Assembly: GCF_016599715.1 (NCBI RefSeq)
Contig: NZ_CP067019.1
Coordinates: forward strand, 3,038,001 to 3,102,000
Source: Acinetobacter sp. CS-2
GTDB lineage: Bacteria > Pseudomonadota > Gammaproteobacteria > Pseudomonadales > Moraxellaceae
Length of the DNA stretch: 64,000 nt
Direction of reading: 5' to 3'
Part shown: one piece after another, positions 20,954-40,141 of the stretch
Numbering within the stretch: the stretch's first letter is position 1
Layout: each line of letters starts with the position of its first letter
Position numbers and translations under genes: made by a program
Notes under the pieces: model-generated
The model's input: only the letters and a program-made list of their open reading frames with translations
Database searches by the model: none
What the model was told of the DNA's origin: nothing

Positions 20954-23900
20954 ATGTCATCATTCTTTAACTTAATAACAACTTACAGAACAAGTGCCAA
21001 ATCAGAACGTGAAAAAGGTACTTATTTTGAGTTGCTTTGTATTAAGTATTTTGAGAATGAACCTGCCTATGCTGACTTGTTTACTAAAGTTCAACCCTAT
21101 ACTGAGTGGGCAAAGGAACAAGGTTTAACAGGTAAAGATACCGGTATTGATTTAGTCGCAACAGACAAAGACGGCGGCTTTTGTGCTATTCAATGCAAAC
21201 TCTATGATGCCGCTCGTAAAGTATCAAAATCTGAAATAGACAGTTTCTTATCAGCAGCATCTAAAACCTATTTTAAAAGTCGTATCATTGTCAGCACCAC
21301 GTATGAATGGTCACAAAATGCTTTAGATACTTTAGAAAACCAAGACCCACCGGTTACTAAAATTGATCTTGCAACTTTAGCCAATAGCGTGATTGATTGG
21401 GCTAAATTCGCAGAAAAGAAAGAAGTCGTTTTTAAACCTAAAAAACAATTACGCCCACATCAAAGTGCAGCACTGACTAATGTCAAAATTGGTCTGTATG
21501 ACCAAAAACTAGATCGCGGCAAGCTCATTATGGCTTGTGGTACAGGTAAGACTTTCACCAGTCTAAAAATTGCTGAAGAATGTGCAGGTAAAGGCAAGCG
21601 AGTATTGTTCCTTGTACCAAGTTTGTCTCTGCTTTCACAAACCCTCACAGAATGGACTCAGGAGTCCACTACGCCACTTCATAGCTATGCGGTATGTTCT
21701 GATACCGAAGTGGGCAAAAAGAAGAATAAGACTGCTATAGACGCCGTGACCACCCTTGCTCATGAGTTGCAGTATCCAGCGACCACCGATGCAGAAAAGC
21801 TTGCTGGAAATGTAGAGAAACATCACGATTCAGACCATATGACTGTGGTGTTCTCAACCTATCATTCAATTAATACGGTAAGTGACGCTCAGAATAACGA
21901 AGGCATGGCTGAATTTGATTTAATTATCTGTGATGAGGCCCATCGTACTACGGGTTCTACCCATGATAGTGAAGATGATTCTAACTTTGTCAAAATCCAT
22001 GATGCCGGTTTTATCTTAGGTAAGAAACGTCTATACATGACGGCGACGCCTCGTATCTTTTCAGATGATGTGAAATCTAACTCGAGTGAGTTCACTTTAT
22101 TCTCTATGGATGATGAGAAACTTTTTGGTCAAACGCTCTATACCATTAATTTCTCTGAAGCTGTAAAGCTTGGCCTACTGGTCGATTACAAAGTGATTGT
22201 ACTGAGCGTAGACTCCGATACGATTATTGATAAGCTCGGTGGTTTCTTATCTGAAACTGATGAAATTGTGGTGGATGATGCAGCGCGTATTGTTGGCTGT
22301 TGGAAGGCATTATCTAAACAAGGTATTCATGCTGATGTCGACGAAGATACGGCGCCAATGCAACGTGCATTAGCATTTTGTCAGGTGATTGAGAAAACTG
22401 AAAAAGCCCGTACTCACCAAGTCAGTTCTACCCATATTGCCGGTATTTTTGAGAAAGTCGTCGAAGCCTATCAAACTGCTGAGCAGAATGATGGCAATGA
22501 AATCTCTCACCATCTTGTTTGTGAAGCAAAACACGTTGATGGTGGTATGGGGGCTGGACTTAAAGAAGAAAAATTAAACTGGTTGAAAGCCACTCCTGAA
22601 CCGGTCTTTGATGAACATGGTGAAGCGCGTCCCATCTGTCGTATTTTAAGCAATGTCCGCTGTTTGTCTGAAGGTGTAGACGTCCCTTCCCTTGACTCCG
22701 TACTCTTTTTAACGCCGCGAAGTTCTCAAGTCGATGTTGTACAGTCGGTAGGACGGGTAATGCGTCTGGCCCCGAATAAAAAACGTGGTTATGTGATTTT
22801 ACCTGTGGTCATTCCACCAGGCATGGAGCCACATAAAGCACTGGATGATAACAAGACCTATAAAGTCGTGTGGCAAGTACTCAATGCCCTACGTTCACAC
22901 GATGACCGTTTCGATGCCATGATTAACAAAATGGACTTAACCGGTATAGATAAGTCTAAGATGGAAGTGATTGCCATCACCAATAAAGTCGCAGCAAAAG
23001 CCAAAAAGAAAGCTGCCGGTCAAGGCGGCACAACGATTGGTACTGCTACGAAAAAAACTAAAAAAGAAGAAGTGGAAGATGTTCAGCAAACATTTAGTTT
23101 TGAGTCAGGTGAAATTGAACGGGCCATTGTCGCTAAAGTGGTTCAAAAGGTGGGGAATCGTCACCACTGGGAAGATTGGGCAAATGATATTTCCAAGATT
23201 GCTCAAACCCATATCAAGCTCATCACCGAAATTTTGCAACGTCCTGAGTGTGATAAAGAACGTGCAGTGTTTGAAGAGTTTGCGATTGAAATTCGAGATG
23301 ACTTGAACAATGCTGTATCTGATGCTGAAATTATTGAAATGTTGGCACAGCATTTAATTACCAAGCCGGTATTTGATGCCTTATTTGATGAATACAGCTT
23401 TGCTAAGCACAACCCGATGGCTGTGGCAATGCAAAAGGTGTTGGATGTACTTGATCAACATCAAATTGATAGTGAAACTCAGGCATTAAAACGTTTCTAT
23501 GAAAGTGTAAAAATGCGTGCAGCAGGCATTGATAGTGCTGAAGGTAAACAAAAAATTATTGTTGAACTTTACGACAAGTTCTTCCGTAATGCTTTCCCAC
23601 GTATGACTGAGCGTTTAGGGATTGTTTATACACCGGTAGAAGTGGTCGATTTTATTCTGCATAGTGTTAATGATGTACTAAAGCAAGAGTTCGGTAAGAC
23701 TATTGCCGACAAAGGTGTGCATGTAATTGACCCGTTTACTGGGACTGGGACATTCATTACTCGATTAATCCAGAGTGGTTTAATTCCTCAAGATCAATTG
23801 GTGTATAAATACAAAAATGAGCTACATGCCAATGAGCTGGTATTACTCGCTTACTACATTGCCGCGATTAACATTGAAGCGGTTTATCATAGTTACATTA

Positions 23901-25894
23901 TTGATGACTACACGCCGTTTGAAGGGATTTGTTTAACCGATACTTTCCAAATGTACGAAAAAGAAGATTTAGTTGATGAAGTTTTAATAGATAACAGCGC
24001 ACGCCGTAAACGCCAAAAGAAACTTGATATTCAGGTGATTATTGGTAACCCACCTTATTCAATAGGTCAAGGTTCTCAAAATGATGATAATCAAAATGTG
24101 AAATATGATTTGCTAGACCAAAGAATATATGAAACTTACACTTTAAGTTCTTCAAGTTTATTTGGTAAAAGAAGTTCTCTTGATTCTTATATTCGGGCTA
24201 TACGTTGGGCTAGCGATCGGATTAAAAGTCAAGGCATCATAGGGTTTGTAACCAATGGAAGTTTTATTGACGCTAACACTTCTGATGGTTTGCGTAAATG
24301 TTTGGTTGAAGAGTTTAGTTCTTTATATATTTTACATTTACGAGGTAATCAAAGAACATCAGGTGAACGTTCACGTAAAGAAGGTGGCAAGATTTTCGGA
24401 AGTGGTAGTCGTGCTCCGATTGCGATTTCAATTTTAGTAAAGAACCCCAAAGCTGAAGAACAAGGAAAAATCTACTTCCATGACATCGGTGATTACCTTA
24501 GTCGTGAAGAAAAATTAGATAGGATTGCTGAGTTTAAGAGCTTGAACGGCATTTCTGAAGTTAAAGGTTGGTTGAAAGTTATACCTAATGAACATAACGA
24601 TTGGTTGAATCAAAGAGATGAAGGGTTCTCAAGTTTTATAAGTACTTATGAAAAGAGTGATAAAGATAAAGCTCAAATATTTCTTAATTACTCATTTGGT
24701 GTAGTTACTGCAAGAGATGCTTGGAATTATAATTCTTCAATTCATAAATTGAAGAATATTACTAAAGATGGTTTAGACTTTTTTAATAATGAGATTATAA
24801 GATATAAAGAAGCGTGTGTTGGACTGGATTCAAGTCAATATCCAGCTATTACTGAATTTGTAAAAAAAGATTTAAGTATCTTTAGTTGGGGAGGTAGATC
24901 ATGGAAATCTCCATTCAAAAATCACAAAATACAAAGTTATGATGATAGCGAATTCGTCCTGAATATGTATCGGCCTTACTCAAAGCAATATCATTATAAT
25001 TCAAGAGTCTTTAATCATAGTTTCAACTCTATAAAAGACTTTTTCGCTAGTGATAATTTGGTTATAGCTGTAACTGGTCTTGGTGGTAAAAAAGGTTTTT
25101 CTAGTATTATATCTGACAAGATAGTTGATTATAATTTTCTTGAAGCAGGCGCTCAGTGCTTACCACGTTACCTTTATGAAGAAGTTACTCAAGCAAAAAA
25201 TGTTGGGTCAGGTGATTTATTCGATAACTCGCTTGATTTGACTGTGAGCGAAACCAAGTACCAACGTAAAGACGGTATCAGTGATGAAGGTTTAGTGCAC
25301 TTCCAAACAGCGTATCCGAATGAGCAGATTAGCAAGGAAGATATTTTCTATTACACCTACGGTTTACTCCACAGTGAAGAATACCGCGACCGTTATGCGG
25401 ACAATCTGACCAAAGAGCTGCCACGTATCCCATGCATGAAAAAAGCCGAAGATTTTTGGGCATTCTCTAAAGCAGGCCGTGACTTAGCGCATTGGCACCT
25501 CAACTACGAAACCGTAGAGCCTTACAAAGCGACTTTAGACACTGGTACGAAAGCGTATAAAGAGCTTTTAGCAGAAGACTTCTATGTTGAAAAAATGAAG
25601 TTTGTTAAGAAAGGCGAAAAAGGTACTGTCATTTACAATAAGCGCGTAACGATCAAGGGCATCCCGTTAGAGGCTTATGAATACGTTGTGAATGGTAAGC
25701 CTGCACTTGAGTGGGTAATGGAGCGTCAGGGCGTTTCTACGCATAAAGACAGCGGTATTGTGAATGATGCAAACGACTGGGCAATTGAAACGATGGGTAA
25801 TCCAGCCTACCCGCTTGAATTGTTCTTACGTGTGATTACGGTCAGCCTGGAAACAATGAAGATTGTTAAAAGTTTGCCGAAGTTGGATATTTAA
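20954..25894 (+). CDS. Type ISP single-chain restriction-modification enzyme
   Basis: A 1646-residue fusion containing all parts of a restriction-modification system. Residues about 15-150 are an Mrr-like nuclease (GIDLVATD and QCKLYD give the D-QxK site). Helicase motifs follow: Walker A GTGKT at 196-200 and DEAH at 327-330. An N6-adenine methyltransferase has motif I DPFTGTGTF at 926 and NPPY at 1032. The remaining 550 residues would recognise the DNA target. Size and order match LlaGI/LlaBIII-type enzymes, which translocate and cleave phage DNA between head-to-head sites. The target-recognition part has lower GC than the ends, a sign of specificity exchange. All key motifs are intact. Confidence 0.9.
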   Translation: MSSFFNLITTYRTSAKSEREKGTYFELLCIKYFENEPAYADLFTKVQPYTEWAKEQGLTGKDTGIDLVATDKDGGFCAIQCKLYDAARKVSKSEIDSFLSAASKTYFKSRIIVSTTYEWSQNALDTLENQDPPVTKIDLATLANSVIDWAKFAEKKEVVFKPKKQLRPHQSAALTNVKIGLYDQKLDRGKLIMACGTGKTFTSLKIAEECAGKGKRVLFLVPSLSLLSQTLTEWTQESTTPLHSYAVCSDTEVGKKKNKTAIDAVTTLAHELQYPATTDAEKLAGNVEKHHDSDHMTVVFSTYHSINTVSDAQNNEGMAEFDLIICDEAHRTTGSTHDSEDDSNFVKIHDAGFILGKKRLYMTATPRIFSDDVKSNSSEFTLFSMDDEKLFGQTLYTINFSEAVKLGLLVDYKVIVLSVDSDTIIDKLGGFLSETDEIVVDDAARIVGCWKALSKQGIHADVDEDTAPMQRALAFCQVIEKTEKARTHQVSSTHIAGIFEKVVEAYQTAEQNDGNEISHHLVCEAKHVDGGMGAGLKEEKLNWLKATPEPVFDEHGEARPICRILSNVRCLSEGVDVPSLDSVLFLTPRSSQVDVVQSVGRVMRLAPNKKRGYVILPVVIPPGMEPHKALDDNKTYKVVWQVLNALRSHDDRFDAMINKMDLTGIDKSKMEVIAITNKVAAKAKKKAAGQGGTTIGTATKKTKKEEVEDVQQTFSFESGEIERAIVAKVVQKVGNRHHWEDWANDISKIAQTHIKLITEILQRPECDKERAVFEEFAIEIRDDLNNAVSDAEIIEMLAQHLITKPVFDALFDEYSFAKHNPMAVAMQKVLDVLDQHQIDSETQALKRFYESVKMRAAGIDSAEGKQKIIVELYDKFFRNAFPRMTERLGIVYTPVEVVDFILHSVNDVLKQEFGKTIADKGVHVIDPFTGTGTFITRLIQSGLIPQDQLVYKYKNELHANELVLLAYYIAAINIEAVYHSYIIDDYTPFEGICLTDTFQMYEKEDLVDEVLIDNSARRKRQKKLDIQVIIGNPPYSIGQGSQNDDNQNVKYDLLDQRIYETYTLSSSSLFGKRSSLDSYIRAIRWASDRIKSQGIIGFVTNGSFIDANTSDGLRKCLVEEFSSLYILHLRGNQRTSGERSRKEGGKIFGSGSRAPIAISILVKNPKAEEQGKIYFHDIGDYLSREEKLDRIAEFKSLNGISEVKGWLKVIPNEHNDWLNQRDEGFSSFISTYEKSDKDKAQIFLNYSFGVVTARDAWNYNSSIHKLKNITKDGLDFFNNEIIRYKEACVGLDSSQYPAITEFVKKDLSIFSWGGRSWKSPFKNHKIQSYDDSEFVLNMYRPYSKQYHYNSRVFNHSFNSIKDFFASDNLVIAVTGLGGKKGFSSIISDKIVDYNFLEAGAQCLPRYLYEEVTQAKNVGSGDLFDNSLDLTVSETKYQRKDGISDEGLVHFQTAYPNEQISKEDIFYYTYGLLHSEEYRDRYADNLTKELPRIPCMKKAEDFWAFSKAGRDLAHWHLNYETVEPYKATLDTGTKAYKELLAEDFYVEKMKFVKKGEKGTVIYNKRVTIKGIPLEAYEYVVNGKPALEWVMERQGVSTHKDSGIVNDANDWAIETMGNPAYPLELFLRVITVSLETMKIVKSLPKLDI

Positions 25895-25901
25895 ATTTTG
25901 G

Positions 25902-25929
25902 GCACTAGAGTTATCTAGTGCTTTTCTCT
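25902..25929 (+). terminator. Type ISP gene terminator
   Basis: GCACTAGA and TCTAGTGC pair around a four-base loop, followed by TTTTCTCTT. Confidence 0.8.
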
Positions 25930-25961
25930 TAATTATGATGAAAAATAACAATATTAAATCT

Positions 25962-25986
25962 AAAAGCCAGTGTAATACTGGCTTTT
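25962..25986. terminator. Bidirectional terminator
   Basis: AAAAGCCAGT and ACTGGCTTTT form a ten-base perfect stem right after the stop of the leftward membrane-protein gene. Confidence 0.75.
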
Positions 25987-25991
25987 GGTTT

Positions 25992-26276
25992 CTAGGCTGT
26001 TTGTTTTTTAGGTGCTAAAGCCATATGGAAAATCATACCCATAATGATTGAGGTACCAATGCTGCTAAAAAGATGGTGCTCAATAGCGAAGTCTGGCTGC
26101 ATGGCTTTAATCCCTAACCATATCAGTACGCTTATAAAAAACCAACCTAGTGTTACCGCTTGTTTTTTGTTTACCGACCAATTAGCAATCTCTGGTTTTG
26201 AATTAACAACAGCTTTACCAACAACAAAAGAAATAATTGCATGAAGCAGTAGAAAAATAAGACCCATATAACCCAC
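25992..26276 (-). CDS. Small membrane protein of unknown function
   Basis: A 94-residue protein with three hydrophobic helices (about residues 3-22, 41-58 and 68-88) and a short basic tail ending PKKQT. It lies at the right end of element 1 and is transcribed toward the Type ISP gene. No family is recognised. It could be cargo or part of the defence region. Confidence 0.6.
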   Translation of the reverse strand: MGYMGLIFLLLHAIISFVVGKAVVNSKPEIANWSVNKKQAVTLGWFFISVLIWLGIKAMQPDFAIEHHLFSSIGTSIIMGMIFHMALAPKKQTA

Positions 26277-27135
26277 TATTTTTATGATTAAAGTTATAGA
26301 TCATCATATATGAAAAAGTCTGCATGAAATCGGTGTTTTTTAGGGGCTAAACCTACCTTCAATTTACCTTGAGGAAATAGCGAAAAGCACAGCATAAAAA
26401 TTAATGGAAACTTCATTAAACAAAGCATAAATACTTTATTTTTATTGGCATAAACTACCAAAAAAAACCACATAAAATAGGTCCATACCGGATATCTTTA
26501 TTATAAATTAACCCTAAACCAAAATTTAAATATATAAAACAAATACTTATATGGGTTTTTTCTATTTTTTTATAGTTGTTTTAGGGTTGTTTTAGCTGTT
26601 TCGCAAATTAACCCCATGAAGCTTTTTGTCAAGCATAATTTTTTAGTATGTTTGAACCGATAATGATTGGCAAAATATTACATTTTCAGCACATAAGATT
26701 AGTGATTTATCAATGTAAAAATAACGAATAAATTTGTGTATTGTGGAATTGAAAAAGCCCCCATGCTTATGATTAGGCATGGGGGCTTTTCTGCGAAGAT
26801 AGAGTTTTAAAACTTGAGTAACCTTACCATAGTTTTTATATGGTTAAATCAATAAAGAAAAGTGCTGAGTGCGTATTTTAAATCGCGCTATTTTCGTTTG
26901 TGCCGACTGGCACCTGAATTACTAATAGCAGTAGTCGATCTATCAAGCTGGAATGTCTGGACACCCCCTCTACTATTCGACTTACTCGACCAGTAAAAAA
27001 CAGGTCGGAAGAAAACAGTAAAACCACTTATATTTTTTTAAGCTAAAAAAGCAGTTTTATATTCAAAAACACACGAATCGAGAAATAAGGAATCAAATTG
27101 ACGATACGTGTACTGATACTCCAACTCTGAACACT
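26277..27135. other. Gene-free right flank of element 1
   Basis: I see no gene in about 860 bases. A strong terminator lies at 26752-26790 with no gene before it. A small hairpin GTGCCGACTGGCAC lies near 26901. The sequence is AT-rich and may hold an RNA gene or a decayed module. Confidence 0.5.
26752..26790. terminator. Orphan strong terminator
   Basis: AAAAGCCCCCATGC and GCATGGGGGCTTTT form a 14-base stem with A-runs and T-runs on both sides. No reading frame ends near it on the plus strand. Confidence 0.7.
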
Positions 27136-27157
27136 TGTCGGTATATTTGTCGGTATA
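27136..27157. promoter_or_regulatory. Integrase arm-type sites, right end of element 1
   Basis: TGTCGGTATA at 27136 and 27148 repeats the 12-bp spaced pair found near the left end of element 1. Confidence 0.6.
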
Positions 27158-27217
27158 TTTGAATTTATCATAATTTATATTTATATTTTTCAGTAAGTTA
27201 TATCGTTATTGCGACTT

Positions 27218-27232
27218 CCTCTTTCACCGCCA
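27218..27232 (+). repeat. attR of element 1 / attL of element 2
   Basis: This 15-bp sequence is identical to the tRNA-Ser 3' end. It marks the junction between the two tandem elements. Confidence 0.8.
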
Positions 27233-27265
27233 TATTGAAAAGAACTGCAATCCAAAGCAGTAAAG

Positions 27266-27299
27266 AAAGGCTTAATTCTAAAGGGATTGAGCCTTTTTT
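27266..27299 (+). terminator. Terminator copy after the middle att
   Basis: AAAGGCT and AGCCTTTTTT pair around an 18-base loop, nearly identical to the structure after the tRNA at 13697. Confidence 0.6.
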
Positions 27300-27335
27300 A
27301 TTGTCTACCGCAAAGAAGTGCAATACTTCCGAATC

Positions 27336-27411
27336 GTTGGTATAGTGTTGGTATAAAGGTTGGTATGGCATGAATACCAACATATTTATACCAACAATGG
27401 GGTATACCAAC
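27336..27411. promoter_or_regulatory. Integrase arm-type sites, left end of element 2
   Basis: GTTGGTATA-like sites at 27336, 27347 and 27359 are followed by three inverted copies at 27374, 27387 and 27403. The last ends at the base before the integrase ATG, so bound integrase would block its own expression. A matching pair is at 45346 and 45358. Confidence 0.65.
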
Positions 27412-28617
27412 ATGCTCACCGACACAAAGATTAAGCGCCTAAAGCCTACTCCTGATAAGAAAACCCCAGATAAATACAGTGATGGTAATGGACTACAACT
27501 CCATGTATTTCCCACTGGCCGTATGACTTGGATCTATGCTTATCGTTTTAATGGCAAACAAAAAAATCTAACTTTAGGCTCTTACGAATTTATGAGTCTT
27601 GCTCAGGCTAGAGCGAAACACTTAGCAGCCAGAGAACTATTAGCCAATGGAATTGACCCGGCTGAAAAGAAGAAAGAACGTAAAGCCGAAGCAGATGAAA
27701 GTACTTTGTTTCAGAGTTTAGCTCTTGAATGGTTAGATAGTAGAAAGGCTGTAATTAAAGAGCCCACCTATTTAAGGGATTTATCAGTATTTGAAAAAGA
27801 CTTATTCCCCTATATTGGCAATATGCCAATTGATCAAATTAAAGGTAAAGACGTTTTAGCCTGCGCTCAACGTATTGAGGATCGAGGGGCGCAAGAAATG
27901 GCAAAACGCTCTATTCCCCTTGCTGGTCGTGTATTCAGATATGCAATCCGAAAAGGCTTAATAGAAAACGATCCTACCCCGCACTTGCAAGAAGCTTTAA
28001 AGCCAAGAAAAGTAAAAAACATGGCTCGTTTGGATATATCCGAATTTCCTGCATTCCTACATCGTATGGATCGGTACCACGGCAATATCTTAGTCAAAAC
28101 AGCATTACAGCTTATGACATTAACCTTTGTACGCACGGCGGAACTTAGGATGATGGAATGGGACGAGATTAATTTTGAATCTAAAGAGTGGCGCATACCA
28201 CCGCATAAAATGAAAATGGAGTTAATGCATATTGTGCCTCTATCCAGTCAATCAATTGAACTACTGGAGAGTCTTAAGCCATTAACAAGTCATAAACAAT
28301 ATGTTTTTTACAATCACAGCACAGCGAAGCCATTAAGCAGCAATGCCCTTTTATGTGCCATCAGAACACTTGGTTATGCTGGGAAAATGACAGGTCACGG
28401 CTTTAGGGGATTGGCATCTACCACCTTGCATGAGCAAGGTTATGAACATGATGCTATCGAGGTTCAATTAGCACATAAGACCGGTAACGCCGTGTCTCAA
28501 GCCTATAACCATGCCCAGCATTTACAGTACAGAACCAAGATGATGCAAGAATGGTCAGACTTTATAGATAGTCTGAGAAATAACGTCGTTCCATTCCCTA
28601 AAGGGAAACGTGCCTAA
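27412..28617 (+). CDS. int: Tyrosine integrase of element 2 (P4 type)
   Basis: A 401-residue recombinase with a DUF4102 N-terminus (LTDTKIKRLKPTPDKKTPDK, then LTLGSYEFMSLAQAR) and the catalytic set Arg246 in ELRMMEW, His329 and Arg332 in HGFR, and Tyr365 in AYNHA. I chose ATG 27412, where homologues begin; an in-frame ATG at 27370 lies within the arm repeats. It is clearly different from the integrase of element 1 although both use the same tRNA. Confidence 0.93.
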   Translation: MLTDTKIKRLKPTPDKKTPDKYSDGNGLQLHVFPTGRMTWIYAYRFNGKQKNLTLGSYEFMSLAQARAKHLAARELLANGIDPAEKKKERKAEADESTLFQSLALEWLDSRKAVIKEPTYLRDLSVFEKDLFPYIGNMPIDQIKGKDVLACAQRIEDRGAQEMAKRSIPLAGRVFRYAIRKGLIENDPTPHLQEALKPRKVKNMARLDISEFPAFLHRMDRYHGNILVKTALQLMTLTFVRTAELRMMEWDEINFESKEWRIPPHKMKMELMHIVPLSSQSIELLESLKPLTSHKQYVFYNHSTAKPLSSNALLCAIRTLGYAGKMTGHGFRGLASTTLHEQGYEHDAIEVQLAHKTGNAVSQAYNHAQHLQYRTKMMQEWSDFIDSLRNNVVPFPKGKRA

Positions 28618-28767
28618 ATCAAGAAATTAATGAAGACATTCAGATGCTAACAATGAACTAATTATTTGATATATTGAACACGCCAGGTATAGGAGGCATC
28701 CGACAAGTAAGTACCCAACTTATTTACCTGGTCACTTTTGGGAATGCTGTGGGAGGCATTAATCAAA

Positions 28768-29838
28768 ATGAAGAAATATTATTCTATAGATAAAATTATC
28801 CAGAAATCTGACTATCAATTAGATCATCATGATTTAAAAGATCTTTGTATTCGCGGTCAACTCACACCCTGTATCTATTTCGTAGGTAATATTGTTTGTA
28901 TTCATGAAGAACGTCATCAAAATGAGATAGATGCCCGTGAATTAGGTCCGCATATACGATCCATAAGTTGGACTAATACTTTTAAAGGCTACATTAATTC
29001 TGATGAATTTTTAAATTTTATCGATTCATCTACGGCTCCAACTGACCAAACCAATGTATTTTTTCATGTTCAAAAAATTATTGAATATATAGATCCACTC
29101 AATAAGTTCCAGTCTTTAGCTCAGGATGAATATTTAAAAGCATTTCCGCGAATGACTGATGATGACATTAGAAATATCCGCTGGCTCGTTGAAGACAAGC
29201 ACTTTGAAGGTAACCCATTTAGCTCAACAGAAATCGTTTTCCATTATTCTGAAGTAGATGCATTATTTTCAGCTCAAATCCAGAGAGAAGAAGACATCAA
29301 GTTCTTTAACGAATATGAAACTTCAAGCCAGTCAGATCAGTTAGAAAGAATGCGCGCCCAGGTTAAAGACCTGGAAAAAGAGAAAGAAGAATATTTAAAA
29401 AAAATTGAAAGACTCGAGTTGGAATTAGATATCAAGCATGATGATCTGATAAAGGCCAGTGTTAATAATGGCCTACTATCTGCAATAGTAAAAAAGCTCG
29501 AGGATAAGCAAAGTATCTCTGTCGATGAGCTAACTCATCTTCAGGAAAATGGTCTATGTGAATCTATAAACATCAATAAGAAACTTTATACAACACCAGC
29601 TCTCGAAGCTGTATACGGCGTCATTCAAGAACATTGGATCGACTATGACCCGGATAGCAATCAACCACCGCCAAAACAAACCACTGTGACAAACTGGATC
29701 AAAAAACATTATCCAGCGGTTCAGGCTGAGGATATCCGCAGATATATCGATAAAATTTGCCGTCACCCCAAAGCCAAAAAAGGTGGCAATACCAAAACAA
29801 TAGACAATAGAAAAACCCCAAAGGTATCACCCCAATAA
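28768..29838 (+). CDS. Coiled-coil protein of unknown function
   Basis: A 356-residue protein. A coiled coil spans about residues 195-240 (LERMRAQVKDLEKEKEEYLK). The C-terminal 90 residues contain TPALEAVYGVIQEHW and a helix-turn-helix-like TTVTNWIKKHYPAV, followed by a basic tail. This suggests a DNA-binding end, but no family is recognised with confidence. The ATG at 28768 fits a GGAGG upstream better than the ATG at 28738. It lies between integrase and alpA, the same position as the unknown gene at 15266 in element 1, but the two proteins look unrelated. Confidence 0.65.
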   Translation: MKKYYSIDKIIQKSDYQLDHHDLKDLCIRGQLTPCIYFVGNIVCIHEERHQNEIDARELGPHIRSISWTNTFKGYINSDEFLNFIDSSTAPTDQTNVFFHVQKIIEYIDPLNKFQSLAQDEYLKAFPRMTDDDIRNIRWLVEDKHFEGNPFSSTEIVFHYSEVDALFSAQIQREEDIKFFNEYETSSQSDQLERMRAQVKDLEKEKEEYLKKIERLELELDIKHDDLIKASVNNGLLSAIVKKLEDKQSISVDELTHLQENGLCESININKKLYTTPALEAVYGVIQEHWIDYDPDSNQPPPKQTTVTNWIKKHYPAVQAEDIRRYIDKICRHPKAKKGGNTKTIDNRKTPKVSPQ

Positions 29839-30023
29839 TTCAATAAATATCATTAACTTATTTTGGTTTGGTGAAAGCTTTTTAGGGTTGCTACTACCCC
29901 TTTAACTATTCACCACCCCATTATTAATTTGCTCTGATGCTCTCATCAAGCCAACGCAAGCTACAGCAGTGAACTGCAAGTAATGCGACGGCAGCTATCT
30001 ATTTCGACTAAATAGGATGAGTT

Positions 30024-30317
30024 ATGGCATCTCTCACGCAAGAGCGATTTTTACGCATTAAGGATTTAGCGAATATTCCAGCTAAACAGGCGTCTACTCA
30101 CATTTACAAAAGCGGCATTAACAAAGGTAAAGCTAAGGTAGTTAATGCTCGCCCAGCATCCGCAGGCTTACTTGGCGTCTCAGATAAAACGATTTGGAAC
30201 TGGGTAAAGCGTGGTGAATTTCCAGATCCTATTAAGTTAAGTCCAAGTGTCACAGTGTGGCGCCTTTCTGAAGTCCAGGCATGGATGGACGAAAAAGGTA
30301 TGGAGGCTTCTCAATGA
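30024..30317 (+). CDS. alpA: AlpA-family regulator of element 2
   Basis: A 97-residue AlpA protein. The core LLGVSDKTIWNWVKRGEFPD and IKLSPSVTVWRLSEVQAWM lines up with the element 1 paralogue. The N-terminal 50 residues include a Lys-rich segment (SGINKGKAKVVNA) also similar to the paralogue. An inverted repeat CTATTT...AAATAG precedes the start. The stop overlaps the Rha start as ATGA. It likely activates the leader operon downstream. Confidence 0.85.
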   Translation: MASLTQERFLRIKDLANIPAKQASTHIYKSGINKGKAKVVNARPASAGLLGVSDKTIWNWVKRGEFPDPIKLSPSVTVWRLSEVQAWMDEKGMEASQ

Positions 30318-30868
30318 ATAAGCCTCTTAACTTTTCAACTGAAGCCCAAAACCAGTTAATTGAAATCAGTAATCGCTTTCATAATAGTGATAATCAAGCT
30401 GAAGCAACGACGACATCATTGAAAGTGGCGAAATACTTCCAGCGCAATCATCGTGATGTTCTTCGTGCATTGAGAGAGTTAGAGTGTTCTGCTGAGTTTA
30501 GCGTGCGCAATTTTGCGCTCACAGAATACATTGATACTCAGGGCAAACCCCGCCCAATGTATGAAATGACAAAAAATGGTTTTGTTTTTCTAGTCATGGG
30601 CTTCACTGGTAAGCAAGCAGCTCTTTTTAAAGAAAGCTATATCGCAGCTTTTGATGAGATGTCTGACTTCATCAAATCTCAGAATTTAACTCTTATTTCT
30701 GAATTCAACAAAGCTGTTCTGCAATATGAACGTGCTTCAGATGCTGCCAGTGAGGCAGGCCGTAATCTGGTTTTATTCGGTCGCAAGATTAAGCCACATG
30801 CTGCTGAAAAAGTCGCAGAGCTTGAACGACAACTTCAGCCTCTATTATTTGAGGAGGAAGACCAATGA
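30314..30868 (+). CDS. Rha-family phage regulatory protein
   Basis: A 184-residue protein with the Rha fold: SLKVAKYFQRNHRDVLRALREL is the DNA-binding helix-turn-helix, and YEMTKNGFVFLVMGFTGKQA is the conserved core of the family. Rha proteins in lambdoid and P22-like prophages affect phage growth. The C-terminal 60 residues are helical. The start at 30314 overlaps the alpA stop by four bases. Confidence 0.85.
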   Translation: MNKPLNFSTEAQNQLIEISNRFHNSDNQAEATTTSLKVAKYFQRNHRDVLRALRELECSAEFSVRNFALTEYIDTQGKPRPMYEMTKNGFVFLVMGFTGKQAALFKESYIAAFDEMSDFIKSQNLTLISEFNKAVLQYERASDAASEAGRNLVLFGRKIKPHAAEKVAELERQLQPLLFEEEDQ

Positions 30869-31173
30869 AAATTATTTTTTGGCAATGTCTTCTCAAACTG
30901 AAAATATTCGGCTATATTAAATTTGTTCGGTGCAAAATCACTGAATTAGCTTTAGCAGGCTACAATGTAAAAGGCGCATACAGTCCGCTTCGGGCTTTTT
31001 TTATGCGTAAAATCTCTATGCATCCGCATCGCTATGTGGAGCTCGGGAGGGACACCTTTAGGTGTGCCGGGTACCTTTTACACCGGTCTGCTAACCCTTC
31101 TGAGCTTCACACCAATCTTTTAGCAGAGATTTGTGAAGCTCCTAAACTTGTAAAAGGAGCGCATTCATCATGA
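30865..31173 (+). CDS. Ash/Icd-like reading frame over the C4-type RNA
   Basis: A 102-residue frame overlapping the rha stop by four bases. Its first 35 residues differ from the element 1 counterpart. From GAYSPLRAFFMRKISM onward it matches the Ash/Icd-like type, in the DNA that forms the C4-type RNA. As in element 1, the protein similarity may be a by-product of RNA conservation. The frame ends in ATGA overlap with the next gene, which supports some translation through it. Confidence 0.4.
   Translation: MKIIFWQCLLKLKIFGYIKFVRCKITELALAGYNVKGAYSPLRAFFMRKISMHPHRYVELGRDTFRCAGYLLHRSANPSELHTNLLAEICEAPKLVKGAHSS
30966..31157 (+). ncRNA. C4/P4-CI-type antisense immunity RNA and its targets, element 2
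   Basis: TGTAAAAGG at 30966-30974 (seqA) and 31149-31157 (seqC) are identical and flank CCTTTTACA at 31074-31082 (seqB), their exact complement. AGTCC-GCTTC-GGGCT plus T-run after seqA is an attenuator-like terminator. The core has stem ACACC/GGTGT (31052-31065) and stem CTGCTAA/TTAGCAG (31088-31126), both compensated relative to element 1. SeqA and seqC sit at the same relative places as in element 1 but have a different sequence. Confidence 0.65.
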
Positions 31174-31724
31174 ACGCTAAAGTACAAATTCAATTATCAG
31201 AACAATTAATTCCTTTCTACAGTGTCGCAGATATTATCAGTGCTTACTCACTTGCATCTGAATCTGCCATACAGCTTCGAACTCTGACTAATCAGATCAG
31301 CAAAGCAACGGTGTTTGTTAAAGCGTATGCAGAAGAAAATAAAGTCGACTCCACTATTTTTGCTGAACTCGAAAATCTAATCGTAATCTCCCACCAGCTT
31401 GCTAACAGTCAAGCGGATACCTATGGCCTTGAGCTTAAAAGACATAAACAAGAACCCGATGACCAATACAACGCGGGTGATCTGCACGATGCTTACTCAT
31501 TAGCTTATGAAAATACATCTTGGCTTCAAACTATGTTTTATCAAATTAAAGATGAAGCTGAGATAGTTAAAGACGCCGTGAAGCAGAATATTCATAGCGC
31601 TGTATTTGGTGGTCTTGATAACTTAATCCATATTGCTGCGTATTTGGCTGATAACCATAGCAACACTTTCGATGTTGAACGCGAAAAATATGAAGCGGCA
31701 TGGGAGGTATCTAAAAATGACTAA
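31170..31724 (+). CDS. Internally duplicated protein of unknown function
   Basis: A 184-residue soluble, mostly helical protein. Residues about 21-92 and 103-174 align with each other: SAYSLASESAIQLRTL against DAYSLAYENTSWLQTM, and FAELENLIVISHQLA against FGGLDNLIHIAAYLA. So it is a tandem duplication of a 75-residue unit. No family is recognised. It starts right after seqC, and would be the first gene silenced by the immunity RNA. An ATGA overlap links it to the frame before. Confidence 0.7.
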   Translation: MNAKVQIQLSEQLIPFYSVADIISAYSLASESAIQLRTLTNQISKATVFVKAYAEENKVDSTIFAELENLIVISHQLANSQADTYGLELKRHKQEPDDQYNAGDLHDAYSLAYENTSWLQTMFYQIKDEAEIVKDAVKQNIHSAVFGGLDNLIHIAAYLADNHSNTFDVEREKYEAAWEVSKND

Positions 31725-31884
31725 GCTTCCTGCTTCTTCTGAAAAAAATACAATTCAGCCTAGTTCTGAGTCTAAGCTTCCACCATCATCATCTGCCTAT
31801 GCTGAGTCAGTCCGCATAACACCAGATCGCCTCTTTAATGCCGTGATCAAAAATAGCCGGCAAGGAGGGTCTAGTGAGCATTGA
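31717..31884 (+). CDS. Small Ser/Pro-rich protein
   Basis: A 55-residue frame overlapping the previous stop by eight bases and the next start by eleven. The sequence is Ser/Pro-rich at the start (SSESKLPPSSSAY) and ends with RLFNAVIKNSRQGG. It has no known domain. Tight packing between two genes supports it being real. Confidence 0.5.
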   Translation: MTKLPASSEKNTIQPSSESKLPPSSSAYAESVRITPDRLFNAVIKNSRQGGSSEH

Positions 31885-32698
31885 TGCAACACGGTGGGCG
31901 TGGACTGCCCCAGTATGCAACTCTTCACAACGGCTCGTTCTGCTTTCATTAGCAGATCGAGCAAGTGAACATCATACAGCATGGCCGAGTATAGAACGCC
32001 TTGCAAAAGATACCGTCCTGGACAAAAAGACAGTTCAGAAAGTCCTTAGTGATCTTATTAAATCAGGTCTGGTTGTAGATACAGGTGAGCGTGCTGGACC
32101 GACCAAACGGGTTAAAGTTCTCAAACTAAACGGCGTCAAAGGACGTGAAGAATATACCCATAATTGGGATGATTCAGGTTCAAAAAAGGATGCTAAATCC
32201 AGAACAAATACACCCAAAAACGGGAATATTAAACAAACCCAAAAACGGAATGATTCCAATAATTGGAACAATCCCGAAAGCGGTACTTTAAATGATCCCG
32301 AAAACGGGATTTTGAACAATCCCAAAAACGGGATGCAGAACCAACCATTGAATCTATCAATGAATCTCTCTCAAGAACACGATTGGATTCCAGATAAAAA
32401 TCAATTAATCAATGTGCTAAATACTGCGGGTCAACAACGGAATCTGGAATTAATTTTTGGATTGCCGGATTTCGAATTTCAATTGGGTGCATTCAATGCT
32501 CACTACGCTGGCCAAGTAATGCCCAACGCAAGAAAATTGTATTCATTCGTTCGCTGGATCATCGATAAATTTGAACGCTACCAAAAAGCTAATCCAAATT
32601 ATGTGAACCAGTCTGGACTCAATACCGCTGCAGTCGAGCAACCGCTTATTAATTTGACCGATAGCAAACCTAAAAGTTTACTTGGGAGCATCGAATGA
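31874..32698 (+). CDS. Replication initiator-like protein, HTH plus DnaT-like domain
   Basis: A 274-residue phage O-type replication protein. Residues 15-85 are a winged helix (AWPSIERLAKDTVLDKKTVQ). The linker contains repeated NPKNG/NDPENG units coded by CCCAAAAACGGG-type DNA repeats. The end (FEFQLGAFNAHYAG...FVRWIIDKF) matches the DnaT-type domain that loads helicase. GTG start at 31874 follows AAGGAGGG. It overlaps the DnaB-type gene by four bases. The origin probably lies inside this gene, as in lambda O. Confidence 0.8.
   Translation: MSIDATRWAWTAPVCNSSQRLVLLSLADRASEHHTAWPSIERLAKDTVLDKKTVQKVLSDLIKSGLVVDTGERAGPTKRVKVLKLNGVKGREEYTHNWDDSGSKKDAKSRTNTPKNGNIKQTQKRNDSNNWNNPESGTLNDPENGILNNPKNGMQNQPLNLSMNLSQEHDWIPDKNQLINVLNTAGQQRNLELIFGLPDFEFQLGAFNAHYAGQVMPNARKLYSFVRWIIDKFERYQKANPNYVNQSGLNTAAVEQPLINLTDSKPKSLLGSIE
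32216..32341. repeat. CCCAAAAACGGG-type repeats inside the initiator gene
   Basis: Five or six copies of a near-palindromic CCC(A/G)AAA(A/G)CGG(G/T) motif recur about every 20-33 bp (for example 32215, 32240, 32273, 32298 and 32321). They encode the PKNG-type linker repeats. Such arrays inside initiator genes often form the origin. Confidence 0.55.
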
Positions 32699-34068
32699 AT
32701 ACCAATACTCCCCCAATTCACAATCTACAAATTGAACAAGCAGTTCTTGCAGCCCTAATGACTGTTGCTGGTTCTTATGCTCAGGTTGAAAGTCTACTGA
32801 CAGAACAAGATTTTCACGCAACACGCCACAAACTGATTTTTAATGCAATTGTTGATCTTGATGCTAAAAACTCACCATATGACGCTGTACTCGTCAATGA
32901 ATGGCTTGAAATGCGCAATCATGGCGAAGCATCAGGTGGTGAGAAATATCTCATGCAGTTAATGAGTGATGCTCCTTCCAGTTTCTACAATCTGCAATCG
33001 TACGTAGAAAAATTGAAGGATTTTACCGCATGCCGCCAGGTTGAAGCTGAAGCACTGAAAGTAATCCAACAGGCCCGGCATTTAACTATCAGCCGTGGGG
33101 AGTTGGTCCAGAATGCTCAAGCTGCTTTTGCTGATCTGAATACTGAATCAGGAAGTGAATCTTTATTTCACATCCATGATGCAGCAGCAAATACTTTTCA
33201 AGAAATGCATCGAAAGATTGAGGCGGCTCTTGCGGGGGAAACGTCAATTAAAGGTATTCAAACTGGTATCTATGACCTGGACAAAAAGTTAGGGGATATT
33301 GAACCAGGCTGCCTGATGGTAGTGGCTGCCCGTCCTGCCATGGGTAAAACCACTATGCTTCAGCTCATTGCCAATAACGTAGCCGTTGTTCAGAAAAAGC
33401 CTGCTTTGATCATGTCTGGTGAAATGCCAAAAGAACAAATCGCCATGCGTCTCTGCTGTGCTATTGCACCGGCAAATATTGGAGTAGTACGTAATTCCCC
33501 ACACATGCTTCCTAAGGAAGAATTTACAGCGTATACAAACGCCGTCGTGATGCTTAAAAGTGTGCCAATGCACATCAATGATACTTCACGGCCTTCTATT
33601 GCAAATATCCGTGAATCCATTCGCAAGGTAAAGCACCAATATGGTTCTGTAGGTGTCGTACTGGTTGATTATCTACAGATCATGAAAACTACAAAGCAAT
33701 TTGCCCGGGAAGATTTAAAGATCGCCTACTTTACTGGTGAATTAAAAGCTATGGCCAAGGAGTTTGAGTGTGTCATTGTCCTTTTGTCACAACTCAATCG
33801 CGAGTTAGAGAAACGTCCAAACAAACGTCCAGTAATGTCAGATCTACGTGAGTCTGGTGCAATTGAACAAGATGCTGACCAAATTGTTTTCTTGTACCGG
33901 GACGAAGTTTATAACAAAGATTCCCAATACCGGGGTATTGCCGAGGCCATCGTGGGAAAAAACCGCCACGGCGAAGCTGGTACCGCCTATATGCACTCTC
34001 AATTGAAATACTGTCAATTTACTAACTTAGACCATGAAGCTTTGAATCAGATCCAAGGAGTTCAATAG
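32695..34068 (+). CDS. dnaB: Replicative DNA helicase, DnaB type
   Basis: A 457-residue hexameric helicase. The N-terminal domain (IEQAVLAALMT) is followed by a RecA-like domain with Walker A RPAMGKTT at 213-220, Walker B VVLVDYLQIM, and the LSQLNRELEKRPNKRP-S-LRESGAIEQDAD motif. Slightly shorter than chromosomal DnaB but complete. It starts in a four-base overlap with the initiator gene, so the two act as a loader-helicase pair for element replication. Confidence 0.92.
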   Translation: MNTNTPPIHNLQIEQAVLAALMTVAGSYAQVESLLTEQDFHATRHKLIFNAIVDLDAKNSPYDAVLVNEWLEMRNHGEASGGEKYLMQLMSDAPSSFYNLQSYVEKLKDFTACRQVEAEALKVIQQARHLTISRGELVQNAQAAFADLNTESGSESLFHIHDAAANTFQEMHRKIEAALAGETSIKGIQTGIYDLDKKLGDIEPGCLMVVAARPAMGKTTMLQLIANNVAVVQKKPALIMSGEMPKEQIAMRLCCAIAPANIGVVRNSPHMLPKEEFTAYTNAVVMLKSVPMHINDTSRPSIANIRESIRKVKHQYGSVGVVLVDYLQIMKTTKQFAREDLKIAYFTGELKAMAKEFECVIVLLSQLNRELEKRPNKRPVMSDLRESGAIEQDADQIVFLYRDEVYNKDSQYRGIAEAIVGKNRHGEAGTAYMHSQLKYCQFTNLDHEALNQIQGVQ

Positions 34069-34070
34069 TA

Positions 34071-34442
34071 ATGTTTATAAATGATTGTGGCATTGATAGC
34101 ACAGTTTTAAAAAAAGCTAAGGCCGAACGTTTTATCAACCTAAGGCAGCAAAAGAAGGTTAAAGAATTTCTCGTTAAACGTCGTGGATATAAGCGTCCAG
34201 ACTTCAATCGTATGATTCTGGATTTGAGTCGGCTTAAATGGACACATGAAAAAATCGCGTTTGTTCTGCCTGTGGCGAATGCATCTACTGTGTCCGAATG
34301 GGCACGTGGTGGAAACCCAAACTTTGAACATGGTGAAGCTTTTATCGAATTGTGGAAAGCTGAAACTGGTCTTGAGCGCGTCCCACGCGAAGGTGAATGG
34401 CAGACATATAAATATGAAGTTGGGCAATTGGACTTACTTTAA
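34071..34442 (+). CDS. HTH protein, copy 1
   Basis: A 123-residue protein with a helix-turn-helix in EKIAFVLPVANASTVSEWARG. A basic N-terminal half (AERFINLRQQKKVKEFL) precedes it. The same helix and the block after it (PNFEHGEAFIELWK) occur in the leftward gene at 40680, so the two are paralogues. It follows the helicase gene by two bases and belongs to the replication operon. Regulatory function is inferred. Confidence 0.75.
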   Translation: MFINDCGIDSTVLKKAKAERFINLRQQKKVKEFLVKRRGYKRPDFNRMILDLSRLKWTHEKIAFVLPVANASTVSEWARGGNPNFEHGEAFIELWKAETGLERVPREGEWQTYKYEVGQLDLL

Positions 34443-34708
34443 TATCAATAGTCCGCCATTTCTATGCTCTAAATGGTGGACTATATTTGATCGATAATAT
34501 AATTAACTTGGAGATATATTAACTTTTCTTATGTGACATTTGTAATAAGCCATACCATCATCATTTTCAAATCGATCATTAAGCACAATATGATAGAGTT
34601 CTGAGTGTTCTAATCCCAGCATATCAAAATAAGATAATATAAACTGAAGTTCAAAATTAGAATTCTTATGCAAATTATCTTGTTCTTCGTCTGTTAAATA
34701 AATAACTA

Positions 34709-35809
34709 TAGGACTTACGCATTGACGGATTCAAAAAAGTATTAAAATACTTTATAAAGTATCTGTGATCAGACGAATTAAACATGCTTCTACAGCAACT
34801 TGTACATTACCCATTTATATGGGCTTTCTCATGACAGAACCGAACTCTATTAGCTGCACACAACTTGCCGAGACTTATAATATCTCGCATGATAGTGTAA
34901 ATCGCTTTCTAGAGCGTGAAGACTACACACCTCACGACCTATATCAAGAATCAATTCAACATATTGATAATAATAAACTTATAGTCAGTATTGATGATAC
35001 TGTTTTAGATAAACCATATAGTCAACATATGGACTTGGTTAGCTATTTTTGGTCAGGCAAACACCACCGATCCGTCAAGGGTATTAATCTCATTACCTTG
35101 TATGCGACAGATCGAAATGGTCAAAATATTCCAATTAATTTCCGAATTTATGACAAATCTGAAAGTAAAACCAAGAATGATTACTTTATGGATATGTTAA
35201 GTGAAGTACTCAGTTGGGGTGCAAAGATTCAATTTATTACAGGTGATAGTTGGTATTCATCGACTGGAAATCTAAAAACCATAAGAAAATATGGTATTCG
35301 ATTTATGTTTGGTATCGACTGTAACCGTAAGGTTTCCCCAGAAAAAGGACAATGGTTTCAACTGCGCTTATTGCCAGATTTCCATCAGGGTCAAGTGATC
35401 TGGCTCAAAGATTTTGGCTTTGTACAATTATTTAAGACTCAGTTAAAAGAACAGCAGAGGTTTTATATTGTGCATCAAGATGAAGATGATTTATTGTCCT
35501 TTGAAGGTTTTCATGAATTACATTCAAGTCATTGGAAAATAGAGCAATATCACCGGGTGATTAAACAGGTTTGTCATATTGAAAAGTTTCAAGTAAGACG
35601 ATCTAAACTGATTTTGAATCATATTTTTTCAGCCTTGATGGCCTACGTTGAGATACAAAAGAACCAGTTTGAGCGGATCTTTGAAAATATATATCGTTGG
35701 CAGAAGAAATTATTTAGACCAATGATCAAAAACTTCATTGATGACTTTATTCTCGATAAAAATCATCTGCTACCACAGAGAATCTATAAGTAATAGTGCG
35801 TAAGTCCTA
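34709..35809 (+). mobile_element. IS701-family insertion sequence (ISAba11-like)
   Basis: An intact 1101-bp insertion with ends TAGGACTTACGCA and TGCGTAAGTCCTA as perfect inverted repeats. The flanks share TAACTA on both sides (34703-34708 and 35810-35815), consistent with a target duplication; the exact border is ambiguous by a base or two. The length equals that known for ISAba11. It carries one transposase gene and sits inside a leftward gene. Confidence 0.85.
34765..35793 (+). CDS. IS701-family transposase
   Basis: A 342-residue DDE transposase filling the insertion sequence. An N-terminal helix-turn-helix (SCTQLAETYNISHDSVNRFL) is followed by the catalytic core: SIDDTVLDKPYS holds the first Asp, FITGDSWYSS the second, and HSSHWKIEQYHRVIK the Glu. 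The core is intact, so it is probably active. The start may instead be the ATG at 34819 (MGFLMTEPN); the longer frame begins MIRRIKHAS. Confidence 0.88.
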   Translation: MIRRIKHASTATCTLPIYMGFLMTEPNSISCTQLAETYNISHDSVNRFLEREDYTPHDLYQESIQHIDNNKLIVSIDDTVLDKPYSQHMDLVSYFWSGKHHRSVKGINLITLYATDRNGQNIPINFRIYDKSESKTKNDYFMDMLSEVLSWGAKIQFITGDSWYSSTGNLKTIRKYGIRFMFGIDCNRKVSPEKGQWFQLRLLPDFHQGQVIWLKDFGFVQLFKTQLKEQQRFYIVHQDEDDLLSFEGFHELHSSHWKIEQYHRVIKQVCHIEKFQVRRSKLILNHIFSALMAYVEIQKNQFERIFENIYRWQKKLFRPMIKNFIDDFILDKNHLLPQRIYK

Positions 35810-36386
35810 TAACTATAAATTTTTTTATGCCTTTTTCCAGTAAAGTAATACTTTCAATTAAGCTTTCATTCCTAAAAATTCTTATTTTCTTAATAGGTGA
35901 TCCTAAATTTTTTAAATGAAAGCTTATATCCTGCTGTTTATGCTCGTAACTTGGCTCCCCAGTAAAAGGATTATCCTCTACCATCACTACTTGTTCAGGA
36001 TCAAAACATAACCCTTCAAATTCTAATATTGGTTTAGCTTGTTCATGCTGAACTTTTTGATCATCCTCATGAATTTTTATTAATTTTTTCTGTTCCTCAA
36101 CACTATTTCTCAATTCAATGGCTTGAAGACGTAATGATTCGGTATTTTGCTTTAATTCACGCCCTTGTTGGAGATACCCATACACTAACCATAAAAAAGC
36201 TAAAGGAGAAAAAACACCAGCTAAAAAATCTCCTTTCTCATTTAACTTCAATGAATTAAATTCATCTAAATTAATTATAAAATTACAGCTTAAATATAAA
36301 TATGAAATAGAGATGATAGTGATCAGAACCATCCCCAAATTATCTTTTATTATTTGCATAAACATACCAATAAATTATTAATATTA

Positions 36387-36818
36387 TTAATTAATTTTGA
36401 TTTTCATTGGTTGAAAATCATCAATATGTACCTGCTTGGTTTTCAATAAATCCTGACGCTTACCATCAGCAACCAATACGGCGCGCTTAACCTGAACTGT
36501 CCAGGTGCGATCCGCTCCGCACATCGTTTCGGACTCAAGAAAAATATTCCCAAATGCTTTACCTTGAAGGTTTTGTATATCGCCGTAGGTTATTACATTC
36601 TCAGAAGTGCCCTGCACTCTACCTGCTTTGTCCTTTGCTACCAGGTCTAAATACAACTTATCATTCTCCCCTAGAAAATCATGGATCGTTACATCCACTA
36701 CGGCGGAACATATTCCAGAATTTACATAGCTTGTTCTGGAATGCTGCAAGGTGATTGGGGTGGCCATTACTGCTGAACTGAATAAATGGGTGGCTAAAAT
36801 TAAAAGTAATTTTTTCAA
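36387..36818 (-). CDS. Secreted protein of unknown function
   Basis: A 143-residue exported protein with a signal peptide cut near AVMA. The mature part is beta-rich with three Cys (SGICSAVVD, SETMCGADRTW and none further in a clear pair), a pattern seen in small periplasmic proteins. It lies 21 bp upstream of the split gene and 29 bp downstream of another secreted protein, so the three form a leftward operon. No family is recognised. Confidence 0.65.
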   Translation of the reverse strand: MKKLLLILATHLFSSAVMATPITLQHSRTSYVNSGICSAVVDVTIHDFLGENDKLYLDLVAKDKAGRVQGTSENVITYGDIQNLQGKAFGNIFLESETMCGADRTWTVQVKRAVLVADGKRQDLLKTKQVHIDDFQPMKIKIN

Positions 36819-36847
36819 TTTTTAATTCCTATATCTATTTTTAATAA

Positions 36848-37423
36848 TCATTTATTTTCTATCTTCAAAGCATCTACGAACTCTAGAGATTCTTTAAGAC
36901 CATACAGATCAATCTTAACCTTCTCGAATTGCCCCTTAGTTGTCTTCCAAGTGTAGATTAATTCTCTACCACCCTTGAGCTTCTCTAAAATTATATCTGC
37001 CTGCTTATTTGCTAATAGATCCGCAGGTATATCCCTAATGACATTGCCGCCGTCTATCTTAAGATTAACTTTGGTTTTAAATCGGTCAGCACCTTGGAAT
37101 ACGTCCATAAATACAACTGACTTTTTGAAATCTCCATGCGTCAGGATCATTAGATTGTTTTGTCTGGTATCACAGATAATTTCATCAAAGCCAGTAGTAT
37201 GGCTAGTCTCATAACCGCATTTTGTATGCCAGTTTTCGCTCTTTTCGTTGCCACCCGGATTGTATGCCATCTCTACAATAAAGGGATTTTCTTGTGATAA
37301 GCGTTGGGCTATCTGCTTGATATCATATCCATTGGCAGGGTCCAAGTATTTTGCTGGAACAACCATTTCAGCATGGATACTGGCAGCAAAAAGAACTAAT
37401 GATAGGGCGACTATTCTTTTCAT
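36848..37423 (-). CDS. Secreted protein of unknown function
   Basis: A 191-residue exported protein with a signal peptide cut after SIHA. The mature part starts EMVVPAKYLDPANGYDIKQ and contains two Cys (TKCGYET, EIICDTRQ) that may pair. The sequence reads as a beta-rich soluble domain. It heads a short leftward operon with two other exported or membrane proteins in element 2. No family is recognised. Confidence 0.65.
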   Translation of the reverse strand: MKRIVALSLVLFAASIHAEMVVPAKYLDPANGYDIKQIAQRLSQENPFIVEMAYNPGGNEKSENWHTKCGYETSHTTGFDEIICDTRQNNLMILTHGDFKKSVVFMDVFQGADRFKTKVNLKIDGGNVIRDIPADLLANKQADIILEKLKGGRELIYTWKTTKGQFEKVKIDLYGLKESLEFVDALKIENK

Positions 37424-37502
37424 AATGAGTGCTTCAACTTTATATTTTTAATCTTTTATCATATATTTAAAATGATAAAAGGAGCCGAAGCCCCTTTTTT
37501 TG

Positions 37503-40043: not shown

Positions 40044-40141
40044 ATTCTAATTCCTGTAATTCAGAACAATGCCAGCATTGCCCATTTAATACAGTTAATT
40101 TAGAACAGTGCTCACACTCAAAAAATGGGTGTATCAGACAT
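40021..40141 (-). pseudogene. Zinc-ribbon small protein with one-base frameshift
   Basis: From ATG 40141 the frame is broken by a run of six A (six T on the coding strand) at 40120-40125. With one base fewer it reads 39 residues beginning MSDTPIFECEHCSKL and containing a second CWHC pair, a C-x2-C...C-x2-C zinc ribbon. Its end overlaps the start of the 846-residue gene. It may be a true frameshift, a homopolymer sequencing error or programmed slippage. Confidence 0.55.

Follow-up and report, generated by a model that had tools for sequence, protein, structure and literature searches.

Two integrative elements lie in tandem at a single tRNA-Ser gene of Acinetobacter sp. CS-2, and each of them carries an RNA of the C4 antisense family, flanked by copies of a short recognition code that differs from one element to the other. 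We consider it probable (about 0.8) that each element has a C4-type immunity module and that the differing codes make the tandem heteroimmune. Both elements, here named E1 and E2, are contained in the window, that is, the whole stretch of 64,000 nucleotides that was analyzed. The code is made up of a part a and a part b, which we name by position: b' is the loop of stem P3, with targets b1 and b2, and a' is an unpaired segment whose targets are a1 and a2; these labels may differ from those used in individual papers. The alternative names seqA, seqB and seqC, which come from P4, correspond to b1, b' and b2. The features are as follows.

13574..13664, + strand: tRNA-Ser(GGA), identified by ARAGORN, with the attachment core at its 3' end (13651-13664)
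13651..27232, + strand: E1 (about 13.6 kb), with a copy of CTCTTTCACCGCCA at each end, 13651-13664 and 27219-27232
13875..15164, + strand: E1 tyrosine integrase (Pfam, PHROGs)
17251..17257, + strand: E1 a1, TTGACAG, a match to a'
17269..17276, + strand: E1 b1 (seqA, TCACTAGG)
17284..17298, + strand: terminator-like hairpin after E1 b1 (1 found, 0.4 expected in shuffles)
17331..17419, + strand: E1 C4 antisense RNA, with b' at 17376-17383 and a' CTGTCAA at 17390-17396
17422..17428, + strand: E1 a2, TTGACAG
17452..17459, + strand: E1 b2 (seqC), overlapping the Shine-Dalgarno sequence of a 25-codon ORF
17546-19657: E1 DUF3987 gene, overlapped by the 25-codon ORF
20954..25894, + strand: E1 cargo, a single-chain restriction-modification enzyme of type ISP / IIG
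27219..45446, + strand: E2, about 18 kb; its right boundary is the third copy of the tRNA end, with a 3-nt gap, at 45426-45446
27370..28617, + strand: E2 tyrosine integrase (Pfam, PHROGs)
30281..30868, + strand: E2 Rha-like regulator (Pfam, PHROGs)
30952..30958, + strand: E2 a1, TTAGCAG, inside a small predicted hairpin
30966..30974, + strand: E2 b1 (seqA, TGTAAAAGG)
30982..30996, + strand: terminator-like hairpin after E2 b1 (2 in this stretch, against 0.3 expected from shuffles)
31030..31116, + strand: E2 C4 antisense RNA, with b' (seqB) at 31074-31082 and a' CTGCTAA at 31088-31094
31120..31126, + strand: E2 a2, TTAGCAG
31149..31157, + strand: E2 b2 (seqC, TGTAAAAGG), overlapping the Shine-Dalgarno sequence of the next gene
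31170..31724, + strand: first E2 gene behind b2, 184 aa
31874-32698, + strand: E2 replication initiator-like protein (Pfam, PHROGs)
32695-34068, + strand: E2 DnaB-like helicase (Pfam, PHROGs)

A preliminary description of this DNA had placed two elements at one tRNA-Ser gene, and the three copies of the tRNA end together with the two integrases bear this out. A tyrosine integrase lies beside the tRNA 3' end, and this end is repeated at the far side, as in tRNA-targeting integrative elements. The third copy was found by aligning the tRNA-Ser flanks of relatives to the window; because of its 3-nt gap, the right boundary of E2 is less certain than the others. Besides the integrase, the DUF3987 protein and the restriction-modification enzyme, E1 encodes an AlpA-like regulator. 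No virion genes were recognised among the E1 and E2 ORFs scanned, and the leader of E2 is represented in annotated collections by two weak records among phages and four records among plasmids.

The stretch assigned to E2 also contains a tRNA-Met (42551-42627) and a gene for a protein like the large subunit of exonuclease VII (43593-44855), which would be unusual as cargo and may instead mean that the right boundary has been misplaced. A DDE transposase gene (34765-35793) between inverted copies of ATAGGACTTACGCA indicates an insertion sequence in E2; because of this gene and the imperfect right boundary, E2 has possibly lost its mobility. The DUF3987 gene of E1 is followed, at 19911-20150, by what looked by eye like the start of a frame for a single-stranded-DNA-binding protein, which soon runs out of frame.

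Both RNAs score above the gathering threshold of the Rfam C4 model (RF01695, 45 bits), with 77.4 bits for E2 and 69.0 bits for E1, and their folds beat all 200 shuffles in each case (z of -6.87 for E2 and -4.62 for E1); the leaders outside the C4 RNAs fold no better than shuffles (z of -0.75 and -1.24). In E2, seqA and seqC are identical copies of TGTAAAAGG and seqB is their complement, just as previously described; this sequence has four matches in the window, including one that is unrelated, the expected number being 0.88, and four were reached by none of 100 shuffles. The eight-base counterpart in E1, TCACTAGG, has three matches in the window, two on the forward strand and, at b', one on the reverse strand, and 2 of 100 shuffles reach this number. 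In both elements b2 covers the Shine-Dalgarno sequence AGGAG and is followed, 12 nt later, by an ATG. The compensation between ACACC/GGTGT and ACACA/TGTGT had also been read correctly, the stem concerned being P2, and the idea of an immunity-type RNA that keeps its structure while its code is swapped is likewise supported.

One part of that description has to be revised. CTGCTAA/TTAGCAG and CTGTCAA/TTGACAG had been taken for the arms of a further compensating stem; the sequences are present, but they constitute a' and its targets a1 and a2. In the C4 consensus CTGCTAA of E2 falls in the stretch of seven unpaired bases that separates stem P3 from stem P1, CTGTCAA of E1 occupies the same place, and the partner sequences lie outside the RNA, one copy on each side (TTAGCAG in E2, TTGACAG in E1), which rules out a stem. 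The code is made of two parts, and the supposed second stem is the a part. In E1 as in E2, the two exposed segments of the C4 RNA are complementary to a1-b1 and to a2-b2 of their own leader.

Together with their covariation, described below, the fold and the shared site, these matching segments suggest the following mechanism. Each element would carry an immunity module comparable to c4 of P1 and P7 and cI of P4, in a leader with the order a1-b1-hairpin-C4-a2-b2-first gene. If expressed, the folded C4 RNA would leave b' accessible in the P3 loop, and a' in the segment separating P3 from P1; acting as antisense, these segments would pair with a2 and b2, where b2 covers the Shine-Dalgarno sequence of the first gene of an apparent early operon, and also with a1 and b1, just upstream of the terminator-like hairpin. 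Pairing would silence the early genes of the element itself and would also silence, in trans, the early genes of any incoming element that shares its code. Since E1 and E2 keep the fold but have different a and b parts, silencing of one by the other is not expected; the two would be compatible in one cell, and by virtue of this heteroimmunity could live in tandem at one tRNA-Ser gene.

The closest known counterparts of these modules include those of phages P1 and P7, which are plasmid prophages and whose C4 RNA is cut out of a longer transcript by RNase P. Their C4 RNAs (AF234172 and AF503408) have the same fold as those of E1 and E2, with 68.8 and 69.6 bits, and stand in the same order, a1-b1-hairpin-C4-a2-b2, with b2 beside a gene start; moreover, a' of P1 is that of E1 (CTGTCAA) and a' of P7 that of E2 (CTGCTAA). 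In contrast, the b' loops are different (TTTCACTAACG in P1 and TTTCACAATCG in P7), E1 and E2 are integrated in tandem at a tRNA gene, and their downstream genes are others than in P1 and P7. Excerpts of PMC5320573, citing Citron and Schuster (1990), describe P1 and P7 as lacking cross-reaction, which a difference of 4 nt is said to restrict. The CI RNA of satellite phage P4 (X51522) is also a member of the C4 family (74.9 bits), with matches on both sides (8 nt for b1, 9 nt for b2, and 6 nt each for a1 and a2), and it differs from E1 and E2 in a' (ATTCTCA) and b' (TATCCTGTGAAG). P4 and phiR73 are heteroimmune. The P4 hallmark genes psu, sid and delta were not recognised in the E1 and E2 ORFs scanned (Pfam, and PHROGs on 10 ORFs), so that by gene content these elements do not appear to be P4-like satellites. 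In E. coli, considered as a better-sampled control and then set aside, a place like that of P4 CI was found in 981 of 5426 genomes (1169 places, with the best per record listed), and annotation of 40-kb regions of four E. coli P4-type records gave one Icd-like gene in each.

In the genus Acinetobacter, C4 matches were found in 145 of 175 species genomes, in a survey with stricter filters in which genomes with about 20 matches have at least that number. A set of 288 loci, made up of 266 of the 312 matches listed for 82 genomes plus 22 from additional genomes of that survey, was aligned with a model built in this analysis, and complements were sought within 260 nt; the matches left out of the 312 were mostly weak or at contig edges. 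An exact complement of b' of at least 7 nt was present on both sides in 192 of the 288 loci, compared with 36 of 1440 when partners of other codes were used, and a complement of a' of at least 6 nt on both sides in 259 of 288, compared with 38 of 1440. The copies of each module covary across these loci, as had been anticipated for seqA, seqB and seqC. For the family of the window 36 loci were picked by motif, one of which (G134, with the downstream motif only) was dropped as non-family, leaving 35; a stricter motif retains 32. Within the 35, a1 and a2 are each exact in 34 loci (control for both, 0/850), and a b match of at least 7 nt is present on both sides in only 22 (b1 in 25, b2 in 31; control, 51/1164). 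Further loci bring the family to 45, spread over 37 genomes; they display 8 a' and 31 b' in 39 combinations, and the two modules assort separately; for instance, four different a' are found in combination with the b' loop of E1.

The stems of the family covary as well. In an alignment of the 35 loci, which give 34 distinct rows, both partners change in 14 of the 27 base pairs and 99.1% of the cells pair, whereas control structures slid by 1-3 columns give 1-6 double-changed pairs and 39-53% of cells pairing. Per-column variation is about three times higher in the b' loop (0.467) than in the P1 stem (0.151), and the b' loop columns that face the Shine-Dalgarno sequence hardly vary.

The energy predicted for pairing with a2 and b2 together is -21.9 kcal/mol in E1 and -22.5 kcal/mol in E2 for the cognate combinations, versus -9.0 and -7.2 kcal/mol for the crossed ones; for a1 and b1 the cognate values are -28.4 and -25.1 kcal/mol and the crossed value is -11.0 kcal/mol for both. 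The predicted preference for cognate pairing thus amounts to about 13-17 kcal/mol, in sums that ignore the accessibility of the sites. It had been suggested that different codes keep the elements from silencing each other; the part of this that stands is that crossed pairing is predicted to be much weaker, and silencing itself is a prediction. Within the family, 28 of 35 RNAs have no better predicted a2-b2 target than their own, with 43 of 1190 foreign pairs within 2 kcal/mol; for a1-b1 the own target is best in 25 of 35 (78/1190 foreign pairs within 2 kcal/mol), and for b2 alone in only 14 of 35 (137/1190). Because b2 alone discriminates in so few cases, specificity would be carried by the two modules together.

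A second tandem pair of the family occurs at a tRNA-Phe gene of another genome (G057), where the C4 loci at 184608 and 199625 are separated by a repeat of the tRNA end and have the codes CTGCCAA/TTTCCTTTATTG versus TGACCAA/TAACCTAGTGAG. An integrase precedes the second locus according to Pfam, and a 408-aa ORF adjoining the tRNA, presumed to be an integrase, precedes the first. Elsewhere in the genome of the window, at 1191333, lies a third member of the family, whose code is neither that of E1 nor that of E2. The preliminary description asked whether tandem pairs always differ in code; neither of the two family tandem pairs found is identical, nor is any of the 11 same-genome pairs of the family, but the same is true of 971 of the 979 pairs between genomes (8 share the full code), and because random pairs almost always differ this test is powerless. 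Among same-strand pairs of any C4 family, 0 of 15 are identical at distances of 3-35 kb and 2 of 22 at 3-70 kb, both of the latter belonging to the family of solitary cassettes described below. Over all families, 10 of 470 within-genome pairs of the 288 loci are identical; the 28 viral contigs that belong to the window's family form 378 pairs, of which 87 have a code in common. As a candidate in its own right, avoidance of equal codes within genomes was set aside: the window family is uninformative in this respect (0/11 versus 8/979), and avoidance is not seen in the solitary family, in which 9 of 215 within-genome and 573 of 17740 between-genome pairs are identical.

These counts bear on the possibility that the code difference played no part in the stacking, the RNAs being functional and the stack reflecting only the shared attachment site. 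This possibility, to which we give even odds, is opposed to the adaptive claim of the earlier reading and not to the C4 mechanism, and we do not claim that the tandem arrangement selected the code difference. It is favored by codes so diverse that full identity between genomes is limited to the 8 pairs mentioned, by cross-pairing penalties that are no larger within genomes than between them (P 0.41), and by the sharing of a' in 4 of 11 same-genome compared with 166 of 584 between-genome pairs; on the other side, the lack of identical codes among the same-genome, tandem and 3-35 kb pairs is consistent with exclusion, without having the power to demonstrate it. A bolder proposal, which we offer tentatively and regard as somewhat unlikely, is that the two-module RNA code of the Acinetobacter elements (at least 8 a' by 31 b', reshuffled) is an incompatibility alphabet, in which selection for unused codes sets which elements gain entry to a cell already occupied by others and stack at one and the same tRNA gene. 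If codes do govern coexistence, the sequence could predict which mobile elements accumulate in an Acinetobacter genome; some such elements carry defence genes, that of E1 being a restriction-modification enzyme.

Apart from the window family, 190 of the 288 Acinetobacter C4 loci are solitary cassettes with the order a1-b1-hairpin-C4-a2-b2 (for example L116, L139 and L034). In 177 of the 190 an ATG located no more than 25 nt from b2 opens a tiny ORF, with a median of 26 aa; 146 of 175 closed ORFs have 15-45 aa, and 84% of the ORFs of 9-45 aa (n=164) have a positive mean hydropathy. To judge from these sequences, the arrangement looks like a solitary C4 RNA silencing a hydrophobic mini-peptide encoded by the putative ORF, in the manner of a type I toxin-antitoxin system. 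The same C4 fold is present in the Group 1 C4-like sRNAs of Acinetobacter baumannii AB5075, for which excerpts of PMC5320573 report 21 similar sRNAs in one genome, RNA-seq data suggesting a processing like that of phage C4, and a scan for sRNA ORFs that covered only those of at least 30 aa. As a group, and not matched locus by locus, these sRNAs are probably solitary tiny-ORF cassettes and not members of the window's element family.

For the AB5075 sRNAs a role in host mRNA regulation has been proposed in the same source (PMC5320573), and the C4 RNAs of the window might likewise have been co-opted for this function. We find this very improbable: both RNAs of the window are flanked on either side by cognate sites within their own element, and for this reason a host target is not needed. 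Less remote, yet still improbable in our judgment, is that C4 acts in cis only, as a regulator of its own leader by attenuation or copy control, and confers no superinfection immunity in trans. The pairing sites of each RNA all lie within about 130 nt, and solitary loci with the same code coexist, as in the 9 of 215 within-genome pairs and the 2 of 22 same-strand pairs mentioned above, which fits a cis regulator; nevertheless, in P1 and P7 RNAs of this family provide immunity in trans, according to excerpts of PMC5320573, and both modules change along with their targets, as expected of immunity specificity, although regulation in cis would preserve the match too.

The immunity modules that we propose for E1 and E2 belong to a known mechanism, that of the C4 family, and their heteroimmune principle is known from P1 and P7; the window is a clean new example of it. 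New here are the extent of the code set, its construction from two modules and the two natural tandem pairs; the open-access literature searched showed no account of heteroimmune C4 elements stacked in tandem in Acinetobacter. The classical observation on P1 versus P7 is thereby extended to dozens of naturally occurring codes, and the tandem pairs offer material on which it can be tested.

Two further arrangements of C4 RNAs were observed. In divergent pairs (at L031, L034, L038, L042, L061, L063, L084, L136, L140 and L230) a strong C4 is accompanied by a weak one on the opposite strand, 0.6-2.2 kb away, and b2 of the weak C4 precedes an ORF starting with MNA.LHGA, of 111-115 aa where complete. 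In three genomes (L006, L015 and L016, at about 1000-1590), three C4 RNAs lie within about 600 bp on one strand, the first of them having an 8-nt b' loop.
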